The position numbers and the translations under genes were made by a program. The notes under the pieces were generated by a model, which saw nothing but the letters and a program-made list of their open reading frames with translations, had not been told where the DNA came from and made no database searches. A stretch of DNA of 64,000 nucleotides from Myxococcus stipitatus (GTDB taxonomy: Bacteria; Myxococcota; Myxococcia; Myxococcales; Myxococcaceae), in the NCBI RefSeq assembly GCF_038561935.1, contig NZ_CP102770.1:1054001-1118000 (forward strand), written 5' to 3'. Positions 827 through 15,286 of the stretch are shown in pieces (position 1 is the stretch's first letter; every line of letters starts with the position of its first letter).

Positions 827-1004
827 GCATGAGCGCTTGAAACACCCTCCCGCCGGGAAAGGGCCGGAGCGGGGGAGTGCACCAGGGGGCCTCTCACTTC
901 CACGGCCCGAGCAAGCCCACTGGTTCCTCCACCCCTTCCTCGCTCCGTCCCTTTGCCGGCGGGAGCCTGACTCCCTTCTTCACGCAGCCGTCCCTGAAAG
1001 ACCC

Positions 1005-3725
1005 ATGTCCTCGAACGTGAAAGCCCGCGCCGCGCTCGCCGCCGCCTCCATGTGGGTGGCCACTCCGGCGCTCGCGCAGGCTCCGCAGCCCGAAGCCCCC
1101 GCCGCGCAGGCCCCGCAGCCCACCATCACCAAGGCCCCGGAGCTGGTGCGGTCCGTGAGCGCCCAGTATCCCGAGGCCGCGCTCGCCCAGGGCCTCACCG
1201 CCTCCGTGCGCCTCCTCATCACCATCGGCGCGGACGGCGCGGTGACGGACGTGCAGCCCACCGAGCCCGTCGGCAACGGCTTCGACGAGGCCGCGCTCGC
1301 CGCCGTGCGCCAGTTCCAGTTCTCGCCCGCGGAAGTCGACGGCGTGCCCGCGCCGGTGCAGGTGGAGTACGTCTACCACTTCACCCTCAACACCCCGCCG
1401 CCCGCCGAGGGCGCCGCCGCGGAGGCGGAGGCCCCCAAGGCCACCCTCACCGGCCAGCTCATCTCCCGAGGCAGCCGCTCGCGCGTGGCCGGCGCCACCG
1501 TGCGCTGCGGCGACGAAGCGGATGCCCCCGAGGCGGTGTCGGACGAAGAGGGCCGCTTCACCCTCGAGGTGCCGCCGGGCGAGTGCGCGATGCGCGTCAT
1601 CGCCTCCGGCTACCAGCTCTACCAGACGAAGGAGACGCTCAAGGCCAACGAGACCACCGAGGTGAAGCTCTACCTGGCTCCGGCCGGGAGCGCCTTCGAG
1701 ACGGTGGTGCGCTCCGCGCGTCCCAAGAAGGAAGTCGTCCGCCGCACCGTCACGCGCGAGGAGGCGCAGAAGACGCCGGGCACCTTCGGCGACCCCATCC
1801 GCGTCATCCAGACGCTGCCGGGCGTGGCGCGCGCGCCCTTCATCTCCGGCGACCTCCTGGTGCGCGGCTCCAACCCGGGCCAGACGGCGACGATGATGGA
1901 CGGGGTCCGCATCCCCAACCTCTTCCACCTGCTCGGCGGCCCCTCCGTCGTGAACGGCGAGTTCATCGACTCGCTCGACTTCTACCCGGGCGGCTACGGC
2001 AGCCAGTACGGCCGCGCGGTGGGCGGCGTGGTGGACGTGAGCACGCGCAAGGGCGCGGCGGACACGGTGCACGGCTCCGTCAAGGTGGACGTGCTCGACG
2101 CGGGCTTCTTCCTGGAGGCCCCCATCACCGAGGGCATCAGCGTGGCGGCCGCCGCGCGGCGCTCGTACGTGGATGCGCTGCTGCCCGCGTTCCTCCCGAA
2201 GGACGAGGGCACCACGCTCTCCATCGTCCCCGTGTACTGGGACTACCAGCTGCGCCTGGACTTCGGCGCCAAGCGCGGTGAGACGCCGGAGCCCGGGGCC
2301 GCGCGCAGCACGGGCTACCTCATGGCCTTCGGCAGCGACGACAAGCTGCGCCTGGTGTCGGGCGGTGAGAAGCAGGACCGCGACATCACGCTGGACTCGC
2401 GCACGCGCTTCCACCGGCTGAAGGGCGACTGGACATACCGGAAGGGGAACTTCACCTCCGTCTTCACGCCCTATGTCGGCGTGGACTACACCGACTTCAG
2501 CGTCGGCTCCTTCACCGAGCACGACACCATCTACTCGCTGGGCGCACGCGAGGTGGTCACGGTGGAGCTGGCCCCCGAGTTCGTCCTGCGCTCGGGCCTG
2601 GACGTCTACTTCGACCACGTGAAGATCGACGCGCGGACTCCCGCCCCGGGCGGCACCGAGTACGTGCCCTTCCCCGGCGCCGAGCCCGTCGCGGAGATGA
2701 TTCACGAGAAGCTCACGATGAACGGCTTTGACGGGGCCCTTTTCACCGAGATGGACTTCAAGCTGGGTCCCGTCACCATCACCCCCGGCGTGCGCGGCAA
2801 CCTCCAGAAGGTGGGCGACACGCGCAACGTCCTGCTGGACCCCCGGCTGTGGGTCCGCTACGCGGCCAGCGAGAACACCGCCTTCAAGGGCTCGCTGGGC
2901 CTCTACAGCCAGCCCGCGGACACGTTCCAGTTCATCTACTCGCCCTACGGCAACCCGCTCCTCGCCTACCAGCGCGCCTTCCAGTCGAGCCTCGGCGTGG
3001 AGCAGCGGCTGTGGGAGTCGTGGAACGTGGACGTCACCGGCTTCTACAACCGCCGCTTCGAGAACGTGGTGGCGCCCGGCGACGTGCGGCCCACCGAGAA
3101 CGGCGGCTTCGTCCAGGACCGCTACGTCAACGCGGGCATCGGCAAGGCATACGGCGTGGAGCTGATGGTGAAGAAGGAGCGCGCCTCCGCCACGGACAAG
3201 TGGTACGGCTGGCTCTCGTACACGCTCAGCCACGCGGAGGACGGCCGCGCGGGCGCCAAGCCCCAGCGTGACGACTCCTTCGGTGGCAACGGCGGCCCGC
3301 CGGGCGGCTTCGGCGAGGAGACCTACGGCCTGAGCGCCTGGGACCAGACGCACATCCTCACGCTCGTGGGCACCTACCTGCTGGGCAACGGCTGGGAGCT
3401 GGGCGGCCGCTTCCGCCTCACCACCGGCCGGCCGACGACGCCCCTGGCGAATCGCGGTGACATCTACAACTCGGATGCAAACGACTTCGGGCCCACGTAC
3501 GGTCGCTACCTCTCCGCTCGAGCCTCCACGTTCCACCAGCTGGACGTCCGCATCGAGAAGGGCTGGCGCTTCGACAACTGGTCCCTGGCGCTCTACATGG
3601 ACGTGCAGAACCTCTACAACGCGAAGAACGTCGAGTTCGTCTTCAACGACTACCGGTATCGAAAGCTCAGGGACATTCCTGGCATCCCCATCCTCCCGGT
3701 GTTGGGCGTGAAAGGAAGCTTCTAA
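1005..3725 (+). CDS. TonB-dependent receptor with N-terminal TonB-C-like and carboxypeptidase-regulatory-like domains
   Basis: 906-residue outer-membrane receptor. Signal peptide at residues 1-24 (ending ATPALAQA); this fixes the ATG at 1005 although the frame is open upstream. Residues about 42-130 resemble the TonB C-terminal domain (QYPEAALAQG, LLITIGADGAV, FDEAALAAVRQFQFSPA). Residues about 146-225 look like a CarboxypepD_reg beta-sandwich. Plug from about 255 (VIQTLPGVARAP, DLLVRGSNPGQT, MMDGVRIPN), then a beta-barrel of about 550 residues ending in VKGSF with the C-terminal Phe typical of outer-membrane barrels. One base separates its stop from the next lipoprotein gene. The ligand is unknown. 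It is paralogous to the receptor at 28714-31335. Confidence 0.92.
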   Translation: MSSNVKARAALAAASMWVATPALAQAPQPEAPAAQAPQPTITKAPELVRSVSAQYPEAALAQGLTASVRLLITIGADGAVTDVQPTEPVGNGFDEAALAAVRQFQFSPAEVDGVPAPVQVEYVYHFTLNTPPPAEGAAAEAEAPKATLTGQLISRGSRSRVAGATVRCGDEADAPEAVSDEEGRFTLEVPPGECAMRVIASGYQLYQTKETLKANETTEVKLYLAPAGSAFETVVRSARPKKEVVRRTVTREEAQKTPGTFGDPIRVIQTLPGVARAPFISGDLLVRGSNPGQTATMMDGVRIPNLFHLLGGPSVVNGEFIDSLDFYPGGYGSQYGRAVGGVVDVSTRKGAADTVHGSVKVDVLDAGFFLEAPITEGISVAAAARRSYVDALLPAFLPKDEGTTLSIVPVYWDYQLRLDFGAKRGETPEPGAARSTGYLMAFGSDDKLRLVSGGEKQDRDITLDSRTRFHRLKGDWTYRKGNFTSVFTPYVGVDYTDFSVGSFTEHDTIYSLGAREVVTVELAPEFVLRSGLDVYFDHVKIDARTPAPGGTEYVPFPGAEPVAEMIHEKLTMNGFDGALFTEMDFKLGPVTITPGVRGNLQKVGDTRNVLLDPRLWVRYAASENTAFKGSLGLYSQPADTFQFIYSPYGNPLLAYQRAFQSSLGVEQRLWESWNVDVTGFYNRRFENVVAPGDVRPTENGGFVQDRYVNAGIGKAYGVELMVKKERASATDKWYGWLSYTLSHAEDGRAGAKPQRDDSFGGNGGPPGGFGEETYGLSAWDQTHILTLVGTYLLGNGWELGGRFRLTTGRPTTPLANRGDIYNSDANDFGPTYGRYLSARASTFHQLDVRIEKGWRFDNWSLALYMDVQNLYNAKNVEFVFNDYRYRKLRDIPGIPILPVLGVKGSF

Positions 3726-4690: not shown

Positions 4691-4748
4691 GGATATGCCA
4701 GCGGTGCTCTCGTGAGGCCGGGCCGAGGCTGGAGTGGGTGGGACGCGG

Positions 4749-6902
4749 ATGATGAGCAGGAGCACAGCTGGAGTGCTGGCCGCGCTGGTGCTGGTGGCGT
4801 GGGGGGCTGACTCCCACGCCGCCGCGCGGATGGAGGAGCCTGACGCCACGCTTCGTCGCTTCGCCCTGATTGTCGGCTCCAGCGAGGGCGGACCCGGGCG
4901 CGAGCGGTTGCGGTACGCGGGCTCGGATGCGCTGGCCATGTCGCGCGTCCTGGAGGACCTGGGCGGTGTGCAGCCCACGGACCGGGTGCTGCTCTTGGAG
5001 GCGGACCGGGAGGCGCTGCTCGCGGCGCTGGAGCGGCTGCGCGCCCTCGTCGAAGCGGCCTCGACGCCGGGCGTGCGGCGCGAGCTGGTGGTGTACTACT
5101 CGGGCCACTCGGACGCGGATGGGCTGCTGCCTCGCGGCGAGCGAGTCCCCTACGAGGACCTGCGCAAGCTCATGGGCCTGGTGCCCGTGGAGGTGCGCAT
5201 CGCCATCCTCGACTCGTGTGGCTCCGGCGCGCTCACCCGGTACAAGGGCGGACTGCGCCGCCCCGCGTTCCTCACGGATGCGTCCGCGCAGGTGCGCGGC
5301 CATGCGTACCTAGCCTCCAGCTCCGCGGATGAAGTCGCGCAGGAGTCGGATGTCATCGGCGCGTCCTTCTTCACGCACTTCCTCGTCACGGGCCTGCGCG
5401 GCGCGGCGGACACCACGGGTGACGGGCGCGTCACGCTGCACGAGGCCTACCAGTTCGCCTTCCACGAGACGCTGGCCCGCACGGAGCGCTCGCAGGGCGG
5501 GCCGCAGCACGCGGCCTATGACATCCAGCTGGCGGGCAGCGGCGACCTGGTGATGACGGACCTGCGAGGCTCCGCCGCGCGCGTGCGCGTCGCCGAGGAC
5601 GTGCAGGGCCGCCTCTTCGTTCGCGACTGGGGCAACCAGCTGGTGGCGGAGCTCCAGAAGCCGTCCGGGCGGAGGCTCTCGCTGGGGCTGGACGCGGGGC
5701 GCTACCACATCACGCTGGAGCGGCCCTCGCAGCGCTTCGAGGCGGAGCTGCTCGTCGGGACCAAGAGCGACGTGGAGCTGCGCGTGGGCGACTTCGTCCC
5801 GGTGACGCTCACGCGCACGGCGTCGCGCGGGGGCCCGGCGAAGGACGTGCCGCTGGTGAAGGAGCCCGGGACGGCGCGGGAGGACCTGCCCACCGTGGCG
5901 CTCAACCTGTCGCTGGTGCCGCCGGTGTCCACCTCCGCGCTGTGGGGAGGCACGGGCCTGAACCACGTGGCGCTCGGCGGGCTGGCGGTGCGCTCGTACC
6001 AGCTGCGGGGCGTGGGCCTCGCGGGCGGCGTGGGCTGGGTGGACGGGACGATGGAGGGCGGGCAGGTGTCCGGCATCGCCAACGTCACGGGCGGCGAGGT
6101 GCTGGGGCTCCAGGTCGCGATGGGCGGCAACCTCGCGTTCGGCGGGGCGACGGGCGGACAGGTGGCGGCGGTGCTCAACTATTCGGAGCGGGCCTTCTCC
6201 GGCCTCCAGCTCTCGTTCGTGGGCAACCGCGCGGACCATGAGATGCGCGGCCTTCAGCTCGTGGGCGCCGTGAACATGGTGGAGAACCTCATGGGCGCGC
6301 AGGTGGGCATCTTCAACCTGGCGGGCAGCGTGTCCGGCGCGCAGGTGGGCCTCATCAACGTGGCCGACAACGTCCAGGGACTCCAGCTGGGCCTCATCAA
6401 CATCGCGGATGACGTGTCGGTGCCCATCGGCCTGCTGAGCCTGGTGCGCAAGGGGCGCATCTCCTTCGAGGTCTGGACGGACGACATCTCACCGCTGTCG
6501 GTGGGCGTGAAGTACGGCAGCCGCACGGTGCACGTCGTCGCGAGCATCGGCGTGAGCTCCAAGGCGGAGACCTGGCGCACCTTCAAGTCGCTGGGCGTGG
6601 GCGTGCACCTGCCCTTCGGTGACGCGGACCGCTACTACGTGGACGTGGACCTCTCCACGGGCAGCTGGCAGTTCCAGTCCTTCGGGGACACGTCGAGCAA
6701 CAGCATCTACCAGCTGCGCACCAGCGTGGGCTGGGAGCTCAAGCGGCGCTTCGCCCTCTTCGGGGGCCTGTCCGTCAACATCTACGAGCCGCCGCCGGAC
6801 GACGAGGACCGCGAGGTGACGTGGCTGCCGCAGTGGAAGATCGGGAAGGGGGCCACCGGCTCGCGCCTGTGGCCCGGCCTGTTCCTGGGCGTGCGCATCT
6901 GA
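4749..6902 (+). CDS. caspase-family (C14) protease with C-terminal surface-repeat region
   Basis: 717 residues with a signal peptide (about 1-24, ending DSHA). A caspase p20-like domain follows: FALIVGSSEG, then catalytic His120 in YYSGHSDADGL and Cys157 in ILDSCGSGAL. Residues about 270-370 look like a beta-sandwich linker. Residues about 400-570 contain repeated G(A/L)QVG(L/I)xN units (AQVGIFNLAG, AQVGLINVAD, LQLGLINIAD), as in LA_2272-type surface-repeat proteins. The remainder is beta-rich and resembles an outer-membrane barrel. ATG 4749 was chosen because the signal peptide begins there; a GTG at 4734 is in frame. The exported caspase fused to an envelope-like module suggests proteolysis at the cell surface or periplasm (inference). 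Confidence 0.85.
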   Translation: MMSRSTAGVLAALVLVAWGADSHAAARMEEPDATLRRFALIVGSSEGGPGRERLRYAGSDALAMSRVLEDLGGVQPTDRVLLLEADREALLAALERLRALVEAASTPGVRRELVVYYSGHSDADGLLPRGERVPYEDLRKLMGLVPVEVRIAILDSCGSGALTRYKGGLRRPAFLTDASAQVRGHAYLASSSADEVAQESDVIGASFFTHFLVTGLRGAADTTGDGRVTLHEAYQFAFHETLARTERSQGGPQHAAYDIQLAGSGDLVMTDLRGSAARVRVAEDVQGRLFVRDWGNQLVAELQKPSGRRLSLGLDAGRYHITLERPSQRFEAELLVGTKSDVELRVGDFVPVTLTRTASRGGPAKDVPLVKEPGTAREDLPTVALNLSLVPPVSTSALWGGTGLNHVALGGLAVRSYQLRGVGLAGGVGWVDGTMEGGQVSGIANVTGGEVLGLQVAMGGNLAFGGATGGQVAAVLNYSERAFSGLQLSFVGNRADHEMRGLQLVGAVNMVENLMGAQVGIFNLAGSVSGAQVGLINVADNVQGLQLGLINIADDVSVPIGLLSLVRKGRISFEVWTDDISPLSVGVKYGSRTVHVVASIGVSSKAETWRTFKSLGVGVHLPFGDADRYYVDVDLSTGSWQFQSFGDTSSNSIYQLRTSVGWELKRRFALFGGLSVNIYEPPPDDEDREVTWLPQWKIGKGATGSRLWPGLFLGVRI

Positions 6903-6918
6903 CGCCCGCGCGCGGCCC

Positions 6919-7707
6919 TTAGCCGCGCAAGAGCCACTCCAGCAGCTCCTTCGCCGTGTCCACGTGGACGAAGTGGCCCGCGCCCGGGAGCGTCGTCACC
7001 GGGCAGCCCGCGGCCTCCATGCGCGCGGCCTCCGCGTCGGACACGTAGCGCGAGCGGCCGCCTCGGACGCAGCGCATGGGCGGGTGGTCCGGCCGCTCCA
7101 GCGCGGCCCAGAGGTCCATGCCATTCACGCGCGCGTGCAGCTCCGCCAGGGCCTGGCGGTCGAAGCGCCAGCGCACGCTGTCGCCCTCCGTCACCAGGTT
7201 CATCAGGAGCCAGTCGGTGAGGCCGTCGGAGAGGCCTCGGCCGGAGAGCTCCGCGCGCATGTCCTTGCGGTTCGCCGCGCGCGAGGGGGCCTGGAGCAGG
7301 ATGCCCAGCACCATGCCACTGTCGGACAGGTCGAACGGCACGGGGCCGGGCGCGATGTCGAGCAGGCTCACGCGCGCGACGGACTCCGGCACGTGCAGGC
7401 TGGCGGCGAGCGAGACGCGTCCGCCCAGTGAGTGGCCCACCCAGTCGAGCGCGCCGGTGAAGCCCTGGGCGCGCGCGGTCGCCACCACGTCGCGCGCCAG
7501 CGTGAAGAGGTCCGCGTTGGGAGGCGGGACGGCGGAGGCGCCATGGCCGGTGAGGTCCGGCAGGAGGAAGCGGCGCCGAGGGTCCGCCGCGCTCCACGCG
7601 TTCGCCAGCGAGCGCAGGTTGCGCCCCGAGCCGAGGAAGCCATGCAGCAGCACCGTGGGCACATCTCCTTCACCCACCTGGAAGCTCTCGAGGACCACGT
7701 GCGTCAA
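6919..7707 (-). CDS. alpha/beta-hydrolase (esterase-like)
   Basis: 262 residues covering a complete alpha/beta-hydrolase fold. Oxyanion segment LLHGFLGSGRN near residue 21, nucleophile elbow WVGHSLGG with Ser93, and catalytic His245 in GAGHFVHVD near the C-terminus. Spacing and the LLPDLTGHGAS segment resemble YbfF/BioH-type cytoplasmic esterases; no signal peptide. It converges with the caspase gene (16 nt between stops) and faces away from the secreted protein at 7793. The substrate cannot be inferred; haloperoxidase-like and short-chain esterase roles are both possible. Confidence 0.85.
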   Translation of the reverse strand: MTHVVLESFQVGEGDVPTVLLHGFLGSGRNLRSLANAWSAADPRRRFLLPDLTGHGASAVPPPNADLFTLARDVVATARAQGFTGALDWVGHSLGGRVSLAASLHVPESVARVSLLDIAPGPVPFDLSDSGMVLGILLQAPSRAANRKDMRAELSGRGLSDGLTDWLLMNLVTEGDSVRWRFDRQALAELHARVNGMDLWAALERPDHPPMRCVRGGRSRYVSDAEAARMEAAGCPVTTLPGAGHFVHVDTAKELLEWLLRG

Positions 7708-7792
7708 ACCTTTCTGGCCAGCCCGGAGCCTTGACCCGAGGCAGGCCGTGCCGCTTCATATCGCGAACTTCTCATCCCCGAGGTGGCTGCGC

Positions 7793-8296
7793 GTGTCCAC
7801 TGTCTCCCTGTTGCTGCTCCTGCTGGCGTCGGCTCCCGTGAAGGAGACGAAGACCGAAGACCCGAAGGCCACCATCGCGGCGGTGCTGGATGACTGGCAT
7901 CAGGCGGCGGCCCAGGCGGACGAGGCGCGCTACTTCAGCCACTTCACCCCCGACGCCGTCTACCTGGGCACGGACGCCACCGAGCGCTGGACGCGCGATG
8001 AGTTCCGCGCGTGGGCGAAGCCCTACTTCTCCAAGGGCCAGGCCTGGAAGTTCAAGGCCGTCTCGCGCCACGTCTCCCTGTCGAAGGACGGCGCGGTGGC
8101 GTGGTTCGACGAGATGCTGGACACGCCCAACCTGGGGCCCAGCCGGGGCAGCGGTGTGCTGGTGAAGGACGGCGCCACCTGGAAGATTGCCCACTACCAC
8201 CTGTCGGTGCCCATCCCGAACGACATCGTCGATGACGTGGTGAAGCGCATCCAGGCGCAGGAGGCCAAGGCGGCCAGGGGCGGCAAGAAGAAGTAG
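7793..8296 (+). CDS. secreted NTF2/SnoaL-like protein
   Basis: 167 residues. A GTG start at 7793, with GAGG 9 nt upstream, gives a short signal peptide (STVSLLLLLLASAP). The frame is open far upstream through the hydrolase gene on the other strand, but that part has no coding character. The body (VLDDWHQAAAQADEARYFSHF, then AVYLGTDATERWTRDEF and a closing TWKIAHYHLSVPIPN) matches the NTF2-like DUF4440/SnoaL cone fold, used for small-molecule binding or dehydratase-type catalysis. The C-terminus is Lys-rich. Function unknown; periplasmic location inferred from the signal. Confidence 0.75.
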   Translation: MSTVSLLLLLLASAPVKETKTEDPKATIAAVLDDWHQAAAQADEARYFSHFTPDAVYLGTDATERWTRDEFRAWAKPYFSKGQAWKFKAVSRHVSLSKDGAVAWFDEMLDTPNLGPSRGSGVLVKDGATWKIAHYHLSVPIPNDIVDDVVKRIQAQEAKAARGGKKK

Positions 8297-9994: not shown

Positions 9995-10783
9995 TCAGCC
10001 CCGGGGGGAGGCCGCCACGCGCGGAATCACTCCCATCACGGGCTGGAGCCGGGCCTCCTGGCCCAGCGTCCTCAGCCGCTCCCTCGCGATGACGAGCAGG
10101 AGCGCGTTGAAGCCGAAGGCCACCAGCACGTGCCACCACGCGTGGAACTGGGGATTGGGGACGCCCAGGGAGGGGAGCGTCTCGTTGAGGGTGGGGCAGA
10201 ACTGGATGTCGCTCACCCACAGCACGATGGCGAGCGCATAGGACGCGATGCCGAGCTGGAACAGCCGCTTCGTGCCCGCGTCCGGGCTGCGCTTCTGGAG
10301 GAAGTAGGTGCGCCCGAGCGCGAAGAACTCCAGCGACGCGAAGCTCACCTGGAAGAGGAAGAACTGGACGGGGCCCTGCATGAACGCGTTCAGGTACGTC
10401 ACGAGCAGCGCGTGGCTGAACAGCACCAGCGGGAACCAGGGGCCGAATCTCCGCTGAGGGCGGTCCTCCAGGAGGATGTAGACGATGACGATGGCCAGGT
10501 AGAGCATCGGCAGCTCGTCCAGCATCTGGTGCTCGCGCCGCAGCGTCATGTGGAACGCCGTGCTGCCCACGCCCACCAGCGCGAGCAGGCCGAACGCGAA
10601 CAGGAAGCGCCGCTCCAGCACCCGTCGATGCAGCAGGATGCCCAGGAGCCCCGTGAGCACGAGGACGAGGCTGGAGGCGGAGTTGAACAGCTCTCCGACG
10701 TGGAACAGGTGCTGGTAGTTCGTCTCGCACCAATCCACGGTCGAGGTGCTCGGGCCCCAGTAGCCCGTGGGAGTCGCGGACAT
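9995..10783 (-). CDS. alkaline ceramidase family integral membrane hydrolase
   Basis: 262 residues with about seven membrane helices. The whole alkaline-ceramidase (ACER/YPC1, CREST superfamily) signature is present. An N-terminal GYWGPSTSTVDWCETNY gives D17, W18, E20, N22 and E31 at the calcium-site positions. STAFHMTL supplies S74 and H78, LDELPMLY supplies D89, and HAWWH supplies H214 and H218, matching the catalytic zinc site. It should hydrolyse the amide bond of ceramides, giving sphingoid base and fatty acid. It diverges from a TetR-controlled operon across a 126-bp region with a palindromic operator. Myxobacteria make ceramides, so a native lipid substrate is plausible (inference). 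Confidence 0.9.
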   Translation of the reverse strand: MSATPTGYWGPSTSTVDWCETNYQHLFHVGELFNSASSLVLVLTGLLGILLHRRVLERRFLFAFGLLALVGVGSTAFHMTLRREHQMLDELPMLYLAIVIVYILLEDRPQRRFGPWFPLVLFSHALLVTYLNAFMQGPVQFFLFQVSFASLEFFALGRTYFLQKRSPDAGTKRLFQLGIASYALAIVLWVSDIQFCPTLNETLPSLGVPNPQFHAWWHVLVAFGFNALLLVIARERLRTLGQEARLQPVMGVIPRVAASPRG

Positions 10784-10841: not shown

Positions 10842-10861
10842 TAGGTCAACTGACCTATATT
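10842..10861 (+). promoter_or_regulatory. TetR-type operator overlapping a -10-like element
   Basis: TAGGTCA-AC-TGACCTA (10842-10857) is a perfect inverted repeat with 7-bp arms, followed immediately by TATATT (10856-10861), a good -10 match. It sits 53 bp before the oxidoreductase start and 59 bp from the divergent ceramidase start. The downstream operon ends in a TetR gene, the usual layout of an autoregulated TetR operon. Repression of both directions is inferred. Confidence 0.7.
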
Positions 10862-10909
10862 GTCCCGGCGCGGGGGGAATCCCTCCCTGCTTCGCGCATG
10901 GGAGTCGTC

Positions 10910-12001
10910 ATGGTGACCGAGGAGAGCGTGGTCCTGGTGGGAGGCTACGGCGTGGTGGGCCTGCGGCTCGCCAGCCTGTTGAGGGAGCGGCATCCCGAGC
11001 TGCCGCTCATCATCGCGGGCCGGAGGAGCGAGCCCGCCCAGGCGCTGGCGGAGCGGCTGGGGCGGGCGCGGGGCGTGGCGCTGGACATCCGCGCGCCATC
11101 GCCGCTGTCGGTGCTGGGAGGGAGGCCTCGGGCGGTGGTGTCGCTGGTCAATGACCCGGAGGACCACTTGATGATGTCGGCCGCGCGGGACGCGGTGCCC
11201 TTGCTGGACATCACCCGCTGGACGTCTCGCGTGCGGGCCGCGTTGATGCGCCTGTCGGGGACGCCGCCGCGAGCGCCCGTGCTGCTGGGCTCCGCGTGGA
11301 TGGCGGGGCTGGTGCCGCGCATGGTGGCGATGGTGGCGCCGCGCGTGGGGGCGCTGGAGCGCGTGGACGTGGGCATCCGCTTCGCGCTCGCGGACGCGGC
11401 GGGGCCCGACTCGCTGGAGTACGTGGACCGGCTCGGGCTGTCCTTCGACGTGACGGAGGAGGGACGGGAGCGGCAGGTGCTGCCGCTGACGGACGGGCGC
11501 CGGGTGACGTTCTCGGATGGCCGGAGCACCCGCGTGTACCGGCTGGACACGCCCGAGCAGGCGACGCTGCCGGCGGTGCTGGGGGCCCGCAGCGTGGCGA
11601 CCCGGCTGGGCTACGACTCGGGCTCCGCGACGTGGACGATGGTGTTGCTCCAGCGGCTGGGCATCCTGCGGCTGCTCCAGCACCCGCGGCTCACACCGCT
11701 GCGCCGCTCCTTGCTGGCGACCCAGGGGACCGGGGGCGAGGCCGCCTGGCTGGCCGACGTGGAAGGCGCGAAGGGCCACACCCGCATCGAGGTCGTGGAC
11801 CCGAAGGGCCAGGCGCACCTCACGGCCGTGGGGGCCCTGCTGGGCGTGGAGCGGCTCCTGGGACTGGACGGCGCGCCGCCGCCTCCTCCGGGCGTGTGGT
11901 TCCCCGAGCACGAGCCCCGCGCGGATGAGACACTGGCGACGCTGCGCGCGTGTGGAGTCCAGGTGAGCATCGACGAGGCGCGGGTGAAGGAGGCCGCCTG
12001 A
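10910..12001 (+). CDS. saccharopine dehydrogenase-like NAD(P)-binding oxidoreductase
   Basis: 363 residues. An N-terminal Rossmann fold has VVLVGGYGVVGLRLASLL and a following IIAGRRSEPAQAL, as in the saccharopine-dehydrogenase NADP-binding family (which includes trans-acting enoyl reductases and integral-membrane oxidoreductases). Two shorter segments (LLDITRWTSRVRAAL, then LGSAWMAGLVPRMVA) resemble the substrate half. ATG 10910 follows GGGAG by 5 nt and is preferred to the ATG at 10898. It overlaps the TetR gene by one base (TGATG), so the two are translationally coupled. Substrate unknown; control by the operator at 10842 is likely. Confidence 0.8.
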   Translation: MVTEESVVLVGGYGVVGLRLASLLRERHPELPLIIAGRRSEPAQALAERLGRARGVALDIRAPSPLSVLGGRPRAVVSLVNDPEDHLMMSAARDAVPLLDITRWTSRVRAALMRLSGTPPRAPVLLGSAWMAGLVPRMVAMVAPRVGALERVDVGIRFALADAAGPDSLEYVDRLGLSFDVTEEGRERQVLPLTDGRRVTFSDGRSTRVYRLDTPEQATLPAVLGARSVATRLGYDSGSATWTMVLLQRLGILRLLQHPRLTPLRRSLLATQGTGGEAAWLADVEGAKGHTRIEVVDPKGQAHLTAVGALLGVERLLGLDGAPPPPPGVWFPEHEPRADETLATLRACGVQVSIDEARVKEAA

Positions 12002-12690
12002 TGGCGCGGCGTGAGAAGTCCCCGGTGGGGAAGCTCCCCTCCGCGAAGCCTCGGGAAGGCACGGCGGTCCACGCGAAGGGGCACGAGCGCGTGGAGCGCA
12101 TCCTCGACGCGGCCATGGACGTGCTGGTGGAGGACGGCTACGCGGGCCTGAGCCTGCGCGGCGTGGCCCAGCGCGCGGGCCTGAGCCTGGGCAATCTCCA
12201 GTACTACTTCCCGACCAAGCAGGACGTGGTGCGTGCGCTGCTCTCGCGCTACCTGGAGGACACCATCCGCCGCGTCCGGGAGCGGATGGAGGCGGGAGCG
12301 CGCGAGCCCGCTCGGCGGCTGCGTCACGCGCTGGACTCCATCCTGGAGGACCAGGACTCGCCCCGGCACTTCCAGCTCTTCGCGGAGCTGTGGGCCCTGG
12401 CCGCGCGGGACGCGATGGTCGCGGACGCGCTGGGCGTGTTCTACGCGGGATATCGCGAGGGGCTCGTCGAGCTGTTGCAGGAGGCCCTGCCGGACCTCTC
12501 GCCCGCTCGGAGGGAGCGGCGCGCGGCCCTGCTGATGGCGTTCTTCGAGGGCCTGTCCCTCTTCCGAGGCGGCGGCAGCCTGGCCTCCGCGTCGGTGCCA
12601 GGCGTGGAGCAGGAGCTGCGAGCCCTCTGGGATGAGTTCGCGGAGGGCTCGGCGGAGGGGCTCAGTCCTCGGCGACGAGCACCGACTTGA
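12001..12690 (+). CDS. TetR-family transcriptional regulator
   Basis: 229 residues. The DNA-binding domain at about residues 25-75 reads RILDAAMDVLVEDGYAGLSL, then VAQRAGLSLGNLQYYFPTKQ, a textbook TetR helix-turn-helix with YYF and a following K. The C-terminal ligand domain is helical. ATG 12001 overlaps the upstream oxidoreductase stop. It probably represses its own operon, and perhaps the ceramidase gene, through the palindrome at 10842-10857 (inference). Its last 29 bp overlap the end of the convergent PilZ gene. Confidence 0.9.
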   Translation: MARREKSPVGKLPSAKPREGTAVHAKGHERVERILDAAMDVLVEDGYAGLSLRGVAQRAGLSLGNLQYYFPTKQDVVRALLSRYLEDTIRRVRERMEAGAREPARRLRHALDSILEDQDSPRHFQLFAELWALAARDAMVADALGVFYAGYREGLVELLQEALPDLSPARRERRAALLMAFFEGLSLFRGGGSLASASVPGVEQELRALWDEFAEGSAEGLSPRRRAPT

Positions 12691-13867: not shown

Positions 13868-15286
13868 TCAGGGAGGGGGGATGCGCAGCCGCCGCCCGTA
13901 GGAGGGCACGCCCGCGTTGTTGACGATGAAGAGTTGATAGTAACCCGGTGGCGCCATGTTCCGGTCGGGCGGCGCGGTGACGTTGAGGCTGCCGGCGCCG
14001 CGCGTGAAGCTCAGCGTGAGGAACCGCTGGTTCATGTCGAAGGTGTGGGTCGTCGAGTTGAGGGCGATGAGGCTCACGCGGCTGATGTTGGCCGCGTCGG
14101 GCGTGGTGATGGTGAACTGGGCGCCCGGCAGGGAGACGGTGGGCGCGGAGGTGATGGCGGGGCGCGCGCCCTTGAAGAGGTAGGGCGGGGAGAACACCTC
14201 CGCGGTGCGCTCGTTGGCTCCGCCGGCGGAGAGCACCCGCCCGTCCGGCAGGAGCACGGCGGTGGAGTGATAGCCCCGGTAGCGCACGTTGCTGGCCCAG
14301 GACGTCCACGTGTTGGTGGCGGGGTTGTAGACCTCCGCGAAGCGCACGGCCGCGCTGGAGTCGTCGAAGCCGCTGCCGCTGCTGCCGCCGATGACGACGA
14401 CGGTGGCGTCGGGCAGCAGCACCGCGTTGTGCTGGCGGCGGCGGATGCTCATGGGCGCCACGTACTGCCAGGTGGGGTTCGCCGCGGCGAGGTCGATTCG
14501 CTCGACGGTGGCGGTGGGCGGCTCGCTTCCGCCGATGAGGAACACCCTGCCGTCGATGTACACGGCGGGGCCGTAGCTGCGGGAGCCGAAGTTGCTGATG
14601 GGGCCGTTGCTCCACGCGCCGTTGCTGGCCGGGTCCAGCCAGAACGAGGCGCGCAGGGAGCCCGCGTAGAAGAGCCGGCCGTTGGGGGCCAGGAACATCT
14701 TCGGATAGAAGGGCACGTTCTTGCGCGCGTTGGTGAGCGTGCGCCAGGAACTGGTGCCGGCGATGAAGCGCTGGGGAATCTCGTTGATGTCGCCGGGCCC
14801 GTCGATTTCGCCCGAGGTCACCACCACGTCGCCGTTGTTGAGCGTGGTGTTGGTGGGGTACCAGCGCCCGGCGTTCATGTCCGGAAGGCGCGTCCAACTG
14901 GTGGTGTTGAAGTCGAAGAAGCTCGTGTCGGGCAGGCCCACGTCGCGGGCGACGTGGCCACCGGTGACCAGCAGCTTGCCGTTGGAGAGGAAGGAGTGCC
15001 CCGAGCAGAAGATGTTGTAGCCGACGGAGGGAAAGGACGAGAGGGCGCCGGTGGAGGGGTCCCAGCGTCGAGGGGGCAGGGCGCCCTCGGCGAACTCGCC
15101 GTAGAACATCACCTTGCCGTCGGGCAGCAGGGCCATGTGCGTGGCGGAGATGGGCCAGTTCATGACGCTGGCCCAGCGGCCCACCTGGTCGGGTGTCTGG
15201 GACTGGGCCTGGAGGGGAAGCACCATGAGCCCCAGCCACCAGACGGTGCGTAACAAGGGCCAGGGGATGAAGCGGTGCTTCGACAT
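13868..15286 (-). CDS. secreted copper-radical oxidase (galactose/glyoxal oxidase family)
   Basis: 472 residues with a signal peptide (WWLGLMVLPLQAQSQ). A Kelch-type seven-bladed propeller is followed by a DUF1929/galactose-oxidase C-terminal beta domain. Every cofactor position aligns by motif: Cys94 in NIFCSGHSFLSNGKLLVTGG (partner of the Tyr-Cys cross-link), Tyr143 in GRWYPT, Tyr339-His340 in RGYHSTAVLLPDGRV, and His414 in STTHTFDMNQR. Expected to oxidise primary alcohols or aldehydes to aldehydes or acids with release of hydrogen peroxide, outside the cytoplasm. It diverges from the ELWxxDGT lipoprotein gene. Substrate not predictable; glyoxal-oxidase-like RWYPT favours small aldehydes or alcohols. 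Confidence 0.88.
   Translation of the reverse strand: MSKHRFIPWPLLRTVWWLGLMVLPLQAQSQTPDQVGRWASVMNWPISATHMALLPDGKVMFYGEFAEGALPPRRWDPSTGALSSFPSVGYNIFCSGHSFLSNGKLLVTGGHVARDVGLPDTSFFDFNTTSWTRLPDMNAGRWYPTNTTLNNGDVVVTSGEIDGPGDINEIPQRFIAGTSSWRTLTNARKNVPFYPKMFLAPNGRLFYAGSLRASFWLDPASNGAWSNGPISNFGSRSYGPAVYIDGRVFLIGGSEPPTATVERIDLAAANPTWQYVAPMSIRRRQHNAVLLPDATVVVIGGSSGSGFDDSSAAVRFAEVYNPATNTWTSWASNVRYRGYHSTAVLLPDGRVLSAGGANERTAEVFSPPYLFKGARPAITSAPTVSLPGAQFTITTPDAANISRVSLIALNSTTHTFDMNQRFLTLSFTRGAGSLNVTAPPDRNMAPPGYYQLFIVNNAGVPSYGRRLRIPPP

Follow-up and report, generated by a model that had tools for sequence, protein, structure and literature searches.

The stretch of DNA analysed here, called the window, covers 64,000 nucleotides (C1:1054001-1118000) of a host genome of 10.17 Mb in two contigs. 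On its minus strand, at 9995..10783, lies the gene of an ACER-type alkaline ceramidase of 262 aa having seven predicted transmembrane helices. The open reading frame has 262 codons, starts with ATG and has its ends exactly at 9995 and 10783. We observed a third-codon-position GC of 0.96 and dN/dS values of 0.10–0.28 against five relatives, that is, the orthologues are under selection. These properties, together with the ACER-type matches found in 31 of the 96 genomes of the host's family (its own included), establish that the frame is a real gene.

An ACER-type identity had been proposed for this protein in the original prediction, and it was borne out by the profile, the metal-site residues, the predicted fold and the tree. 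A Pfam-A scan at E 0.001 gave a single match, PF05875 (Ceramidase), with 194.9 bits over residues 10–243 (cut-off 32.5). Human ACER3 was the only convincing match of the PDB sequence search (E 1.8e-35; the other listed chain had E 0.072), and these scores exclude a chance match. The NCBIfam scan at E 0.01 returned no match, the HlyIII (PAQR) profile PF03006 and the Per1 profile PF04080 did not match at E 0.001, and no PAQR/HlyIII or SIDT chain appeared in the PDB search at E 1. Automatic pipelines are likely to annotate the gene product through Pfam PF05875 as a Ceramidase-domain protein.

Divergently from the ceramidase gene, on the plus strand, run a gene (10898..12001) for a 367-aa protein that neither Pfam nor NCBIfam matched at the limits used and a gene (11950..12690) for a TetR-family regulator (TetR_N, TetR_C_6). 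The palindrome TAGGTCAACTGACCTA (10842..10857), located between the divergent genes, is the probable operator of the adjacent TetR-type regulator and may be near enough to affect both promoters. We found TAGGTCANNTGACCTA of this palindrome at one exact place in the whole genome and its inner pattern AGGTCANNTGACCT in one of 73 loci, the window's own, while the half-sites TAGGTC and GACCTA are conserved in all four genomes that have this neighbour, the window's own among them.

The gene had also been described as lying next to an inducible operon. The TetR regulator and the palindrome do adjoin it, but the operon is not a conserved partner of the ceramidase, because it is absent from the flanks of the other loci, which were compared over ~1.5 kb in most cases and up to ~6 kb for L031–L040; the 367-aa and TetR genes adjoin the ceramidase in four loci only (L001, L018, L021 and L022). 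A functional link between the ceramidase and the regulator operon was rejected on this ground, and the two are probably neighbours incidentally.

On the opposite side, positions 4734-8296 of the window encode a caspase-domain (Peptidase_C14) protein and a neighbouring SnoaL_3 protein. This pair is shared by several other Myxococcus loci at the same side of the ceramidase, and it is also present in genomes without ceramidase. Three such genomes, G060, G063 and G068, keep relatives of these neighbour genes, and the relative of the 367-aa gene in G063 begins ~8 kb further on. Elsewhere in the window, one frame (837-3725) combines a TonB C-terminal domain with the plug of a TonB-dependent receptor, which is an unusual fusion, and a minus-strand gene (13868-15286) encodes a galactose-oxidase/glyoxal-oxidase-like Kelch protein.

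Metal sites, predicted fold and membrane orientation

In human ACER3, the zinc ligands are H81, H217 and H221, and S77 and D92 surround the water; calcium is bound by D19, W20, E22, N24 and E33, and a disulfide joins C21 to C196 (PMC6303388). The motifs named in the original prediction were all found in the window protein, on the minus strand: the calcium-site loop DWCETN (residues 17–22, 10718..10735; ACER3 D19, W20, C21, E22 and N24), SxxFH (residues 74–78, 10550..10564; ACER3 S77 and the zinc ligand H81), DELP (residues 89–92, 10508..10519; ACER3 D92, which bonds to the zinc-bound water) and HxxxH (residues 214–218, 10130..10144; the ACER3 zinc ligands H217 and H221). Beyond these motifs, we identified the acidic calcium ligand E31 (10691..10693, minus strand), equivalent to ACER3 E33, and a cysteine pair, C19 and C196 (the latter at 10196..10198, minus strand), corresponding to the disulfide partners of ACER3. 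All twelve ACER3 metal-site and cysteine positions are thus present. The patient mutation E33G of ACER3 affects one of these calcium ligands (PMC6303388). No activity was detected for the ACER3 mutants H81A, H217A, H221A and D92A, and ~0.17 percent of the activity was left in S77A (PMC9436119).

The eukaryote-like metal site foreseen for this protein proved complete, and it is not confined to the window: the zinc site (ACER3 S77, H81, D92, H217, H221) and the calcium site (ACER3 D19, W20, E22, N24, E33) are both kept in 36/36 distinct full-length ACER-type proteins of Myxococcota. For this residue table identical sequences were counted once and L041 and L047 (a fragment and a degraded copy) were set aside; L059 and L060, which fall below the profile limit, stand outside the residue, charge and tree counts, and their genomes are included in the distribution and co-occurrence counts. 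The cysteine pair is likewise kept in 36/36 rows of the main alignment. A second alignment, with 15 rows, breaks this pattern at C196, the distant members L044 and L045 having a cysteine at another place. W18, F77 and W189, equivalents of ACER3 residues at the pocket bottom or coupling calcium to catalysis, are also kept in the window protein. L047:2896-3609 (G118:C42) is a second ACER-type copy, apparently degraded, and its genome carries an intact copy as well.

The AlphaFold2 model, built from 20 aligned proteins of the window and the loci, has a pLDDT of 90 and shows seven long helices and one short helix. Foldseek against the PDB gave one match at E ≤ 0.001, ACER3 (6g7o), with E 1.5e-11. 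VIA-align placed the model on the same structure with Z 29.2 and an rmsd of 2.5 Å over 240 residues, followed by SIDT proteins (Z ≤ 17.2) and adiponectin receptors (Z ≤ 14.4). As middling Z values are common in helical bundles, we used the ACER3 match alone as evidence of fold.

According to the positive-inside rule, basic loops lie on the cytoplasmic side of the membrane. We counted K and R in the loops with the helices of the model shortened by three residues at their ends and the C-terminal tail excluded, and observed a mean of 2.75 on the N-terminal face versus 8.58 on the other face, with the same sign in 36/36 ACER-type proteins. When 15 tail residues were included, the sign held in 36/36 when the helix ends were trimmed by three or by five residues, and in 35/36 untrimmed. 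A second, low-scoring branch of the family (see below) has the same sign in 11/11 proteins. The bias is reversed in the ACER3 row, 8 versus 5, in a row that ends near helix 7 with the tail left out; we take the full ACER3 tail to be basic, which would weaken this charge contrast. Following the rule, the loop charges place the N-terminus, the metal sites and the cysteine pair at the periplasm, so that the metal face is most likely periplasmic and the C-terminus cytoplasmic. Since the helix ends were taken from one model and transferred to all rows, and since the ACER3 tail is missing, this orientation is a strong hint rather than proof.

Distribution and ancestry

Matches to PF05875 were found in 53 of the 96 genomes of the host's family, and their scores split cleanly: 31 genomes score 183.7–215.1 bits, which we call ACER-type, and all others score at most 75.1 bits. 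Phylum-wide, 62 of 195 genomes have a match, and five further ACER-type genomes lie outside the host family (G118, G189, G108, G112 and G117, the last with a contig-end fragment). The nearest named relatives of the gene belong to Myxococcus species, at 85–88 percent identity. The sole search beyond Myxococcota, which covered 84,980 species genomes with a pattern and detects close relatives only, returned 11 relatives, with titles of myxobacteria and of one Deltaproteobacteria MAG. An origin from a mobile element was rejected, as 72,556 plasmid records and 50,697 phage records contained no relative; the IMG/VR contigs gave 45 pattern matches, none of them a relative.

The low-scoring places inside the family (26–75 bits with PF05875) are distinct also in their residues. 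In this branch (L049–L058 and L061) the zinc set is kept and the full calcium set is absent. At least one calcium ligand is replaced in 11/11 sampled rows, one of which is truncated over the loop. The calcium-site aspartate is K, C or S in 8/11 rows, the asparagine is T, V, R or S in 9/11, and the E33 position is Q or N in 4/11.

A 46-row tree with one verified eukaryotic row, ACER3, and without L030, L041, L047 and L056 separated ACER3 and all ACER-type rows from ten other Ceramidase-family rows at 100/100. The original prediction had proposed a phylogeny that could move the protein into a different CREST clade such as PAQR or Per1; the tree sets it on the ACER side, which answers the point in part, and PAQR and Per1, which have no rows in this tree, were addressed by their profiles. 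ACER3 itself is placed beside L044 and L045 (97/98). The tree program flags several long branches, ACER3 and L057 among them, and an odd composition for ACER3; the exact position of ACER3 within the ACER group is therefore not trusted.

Transfer from eukaryotes, for which the same phylogeny had been suggested, concerns the origin of the gene and is separate from its function. In a provisional tree that included three unverified eukaryotic sequences, ACER3 and yeast YPC1 fell among the bacterial proteins and ACER1/2 outside them (83/90), a topology compatible with the gene being an imported ceramidase of the ACER3/yeast type. However, three of the four eukaryotic rows of this tree are unverified, and by the AU test neither a single eukaryotic clade (p 0.229) nor a grouping of every bacterial ACER-type row in one clade (p 0.339) was rejected. 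The gene also occurs in several Myxococcota families on long branches, which means that any transfer would be old and could have gone in either direction. Horizontal acquisition from a eukaryote is thus conceivable, and we regard it as rather doubtful.

Ceramide genes of the host

The ceramidase gene is ~4.27 Mb away from the host's best candidate for a serine palmitoyltransferase (SPT). This candidate scores 512.6 bits with the Bacteroidetes-type SPT profile of NCBIfam, below the curated cut-off of 640, and among PDB chains it matches solved SPTs best, at 402 bits, compared with 305 for the best non-SPT chain. The SPT of Myxococcus xanthus has been grouped with Bacteroidetes SPTs, and the bacterial ceramide genes described in sources that include the same paper comprise SPT, an acyltransferase/ceramide synthase and an epimerase/dehydrogenase or ceramide reductase (PMC9386255). 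On the 3' side of the candidate we found a GNAT acyltransferase and an epimerase-type reductase, followed by an MlaC gene on the opposite strand. The host thus carries a probable ceramide operon of SPT, acyltransferase and reductase, in which we infer the GNAT gene to be the ceramide synthase. G063 and G069 have the genes in the same order, whereas no match above the limit was obtained for the reductase of the operon in G022. A GNAT relative was present in 9/9 genomes tried, including G011, which is without SPT-like and ACER-type genes, so the GNAT gene does not discriminate. A review names Myxococcus among the sphingolipid producers (PMC10626005). The native ceramide synthesis assumed earlier for myxobacteria agrees with this review and with the probable operon.

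The MlaC-type lipid-carrier gene (L072:12619-13239; G000 C1 about 5335618-5336238) converges on the ceramide operon and has the same position in three other genomes, G063, G022 and G069. Its product may move ceramide lipids.

We compared the occurrence of SPT-like and ACER-type genes across the host's family. Among the matches listed, SPT-like ones scoring 460 bits or more (the lowest being 462.9) occur in 71 of the 96 genomes and are absent from the other 25; the next SPT-profile match listed for any family genome is at 356.6 bits. All 31 ACER-type genomes of the family carry an SPT-like gene (Fisher p 1.1e-5, relatedness ignored), and none of the 25 SPT-lacking ones has an ACER-type gene among the matches listed. 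Counted by genus, ACER-type genes occur in 7/14 versus 0/12 (p 0.006, relatedness ignored). As the family genomes are related, these tests are not independent evidence. The low-scoring branch shows the opposite trend to the ACER-type genes, 18 of its 24 genomes having no SPT-like gene. Forty SPT-like-positive family genomes, including 10 of the 27 in the window's genus, are without an ACER-type gene, so the ceramidase is dispensable for making ceramide.

Outside the family, the Bacteroidetes-type SPT was found in one of the five ACER-type genomes, G189. No SPT match above 325.1 bits was obtained in G118 and G108, both with a listed completeness of 100 percent, or in G112 (75) and G117 (89). 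The alternative SPT profile NF047603 (cut-off 670) reached at most 229 bits in these four genomes and 325.6 bits in G189. Some SPT-profile matches of the distant genomes sit in very long open reading frames (1845 and 2276 aa), from which a divergent multi-domain synthase is possible. A Pfam search of ten neighbours at five loci of distant lineages (L040, L042, L043, L044 and L045) revealed no sphingolipid gene beside the ceramidase.

Proposed function and comparison with known systems

We consider it quite probable that the window protein is a zinc-dependent, calcium-stabilised ceramidase of the inner membrane, which faces the periplasm and turns over or recycles native ceramide. The catalysis would run as follows. 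The protein would act as an amidase of the alkaline ceramidase family with its seven helices built into the inner membrane; H78, H214 and H218 would hold zinc, D89 would position the zinc-bound water, and this water would attack the amide bond of a membrane-held ceramide, with S74 stabilising the transition state. A sphingoid base and a fatty acid would be the products. The N-terminal loop (D17, W18, E20 and N22) together with E31 would bind calcium next to the active site. As substrate, the cell's own ceramide is the most likely, and an enzyme acting on self-made ceramide would turn over or recycle it. We speculate that 2-hydroxy acids released in this way could be put to further use.

The original prediction had left the choice between native turnover and predation, and the evidence favours the former, because the host has a probable ceramide operon and ACER-type genes occur, inside the family, only in genomes with SPT-like genes. 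Myxobacteria are predators. The ceramidase could serve for scavenging or predation, on ceramides that come from prey or a host (fungi, amoebae or other bacteria) and arrive at the inner membrane, where lipids from outside could encounter an active site facing the periplasm; four of the five ACER-type genomes outside the family, moreover, are without the Bacteroidetes-type SPT and score at most 229 bits with NF047603. However, a predicted seven-helix integral membrane protein is not a secreted enzyme, and the distribution within the family (SPT-like genes in 31/31 ACER-type genomes, ACER-type genes in 0/25 SPT-lacking ones) is not what an enzyme for prey lipids predicts. We think this use unlikely.

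It is also improbable, in our judgement, that the protein is an ACER-fold amidase acting on another N-acyl lipid of the bacterium. The fold does not fix the substrate, and the CREST superfamily is diverse in function, taking in enzymes acting on GPI-anchored proteins and putative receptors (PMC3146951); for two of the distant members, the genome is listed as complete and yet gave no SPT of the type searched. Against this, the residues at the pocket bottom or in the calcium coupling of ACER3 (W18, F77 and W189) are kept, and the distribution inside the family tracks the SPT-like genes. A ceramidase for native ceramide is the reading that we retain.

Bacterial ceramide synthesis has already been described (PMC9386255 among the sources). 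The CREST paper, in its available text, lists alkaline ceramidases from animals, fungi and plants and contains no word beginning with 'myxococc' (PMC3146951). Neither a bacterial ACER-type enzyme breaking down ceramide nor the window protein appeared in the portions of the open-licence literature searched. By its sequence, the protein is a further member of a known family, and what is new is the unexpectedly complete calcium site and an orientation that can be tested. We see an even chance that it is a true calcium-site ACER on the periplasmic face, where calcium is plentiful and the disulfide able to form, and thereby, within the literature searched, the first bacterial enzyme of the family to close the ceramide cycle. 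If so, a sphingoid base and a fatty acid, possibly 2-hydroxylated, would be returned to metabolism, and the orientation would offer a simple model for settling the conflicting topologies of human ACERs. A bacterial ACER with every human metal ligand would provide a tractable model of ceramide turnover and of the calcium control that fails in ACER3 leukodystrophy.

Among the known systems, human ACER3 (PDB 6g7o and 6yxh) is the closest, sharing the fold, the zinc and calcium sites, the cysteine pair and DELP with the window protein at 34 percent identity in the alignment; it sits in the ER/Golgi, whereas the window protein belongs to a bacterial membrane. In human ACER2 and ACER1 the motif after the aspartate is presumably DELA and DEIA instead of DELP. 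The PAQR/HlyIII and SIDT proteins have a similar seven-helix CREST fold (Z 13–17), but the PAQR/HlyIII profile does not match the window protein at E 0.001. The low-scoring branch shares the zinc site and the Pfam profile and yet forms its own branch at 100/100; Myxococcota branches with and without the full calcium site would make natural test pairs for the role of calcium. The CREST hypothetical groups 1 and 2, which are bacterial, of unknown function and cluster with alkaline ceramidases (PMC3146951), are set beside this branch as kindred, with no assumption that the two are equivalent.

With respect to topology, the N-terminus of ACER3 is reported to be cytoplasmic (PMC6303388), opposite to the charge prediction for the window protein. 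In contrast, ACER2 is reported to have a cytosolic C-terminus and a putative active site near the lumen (PMC3146951), in agreement with this prediction. The predicted orientation of the window protein therefore bears on the conflict in print between the cytoplasmic N-terminus of ACER3 and the cytosolic C-terminus of ACER2.
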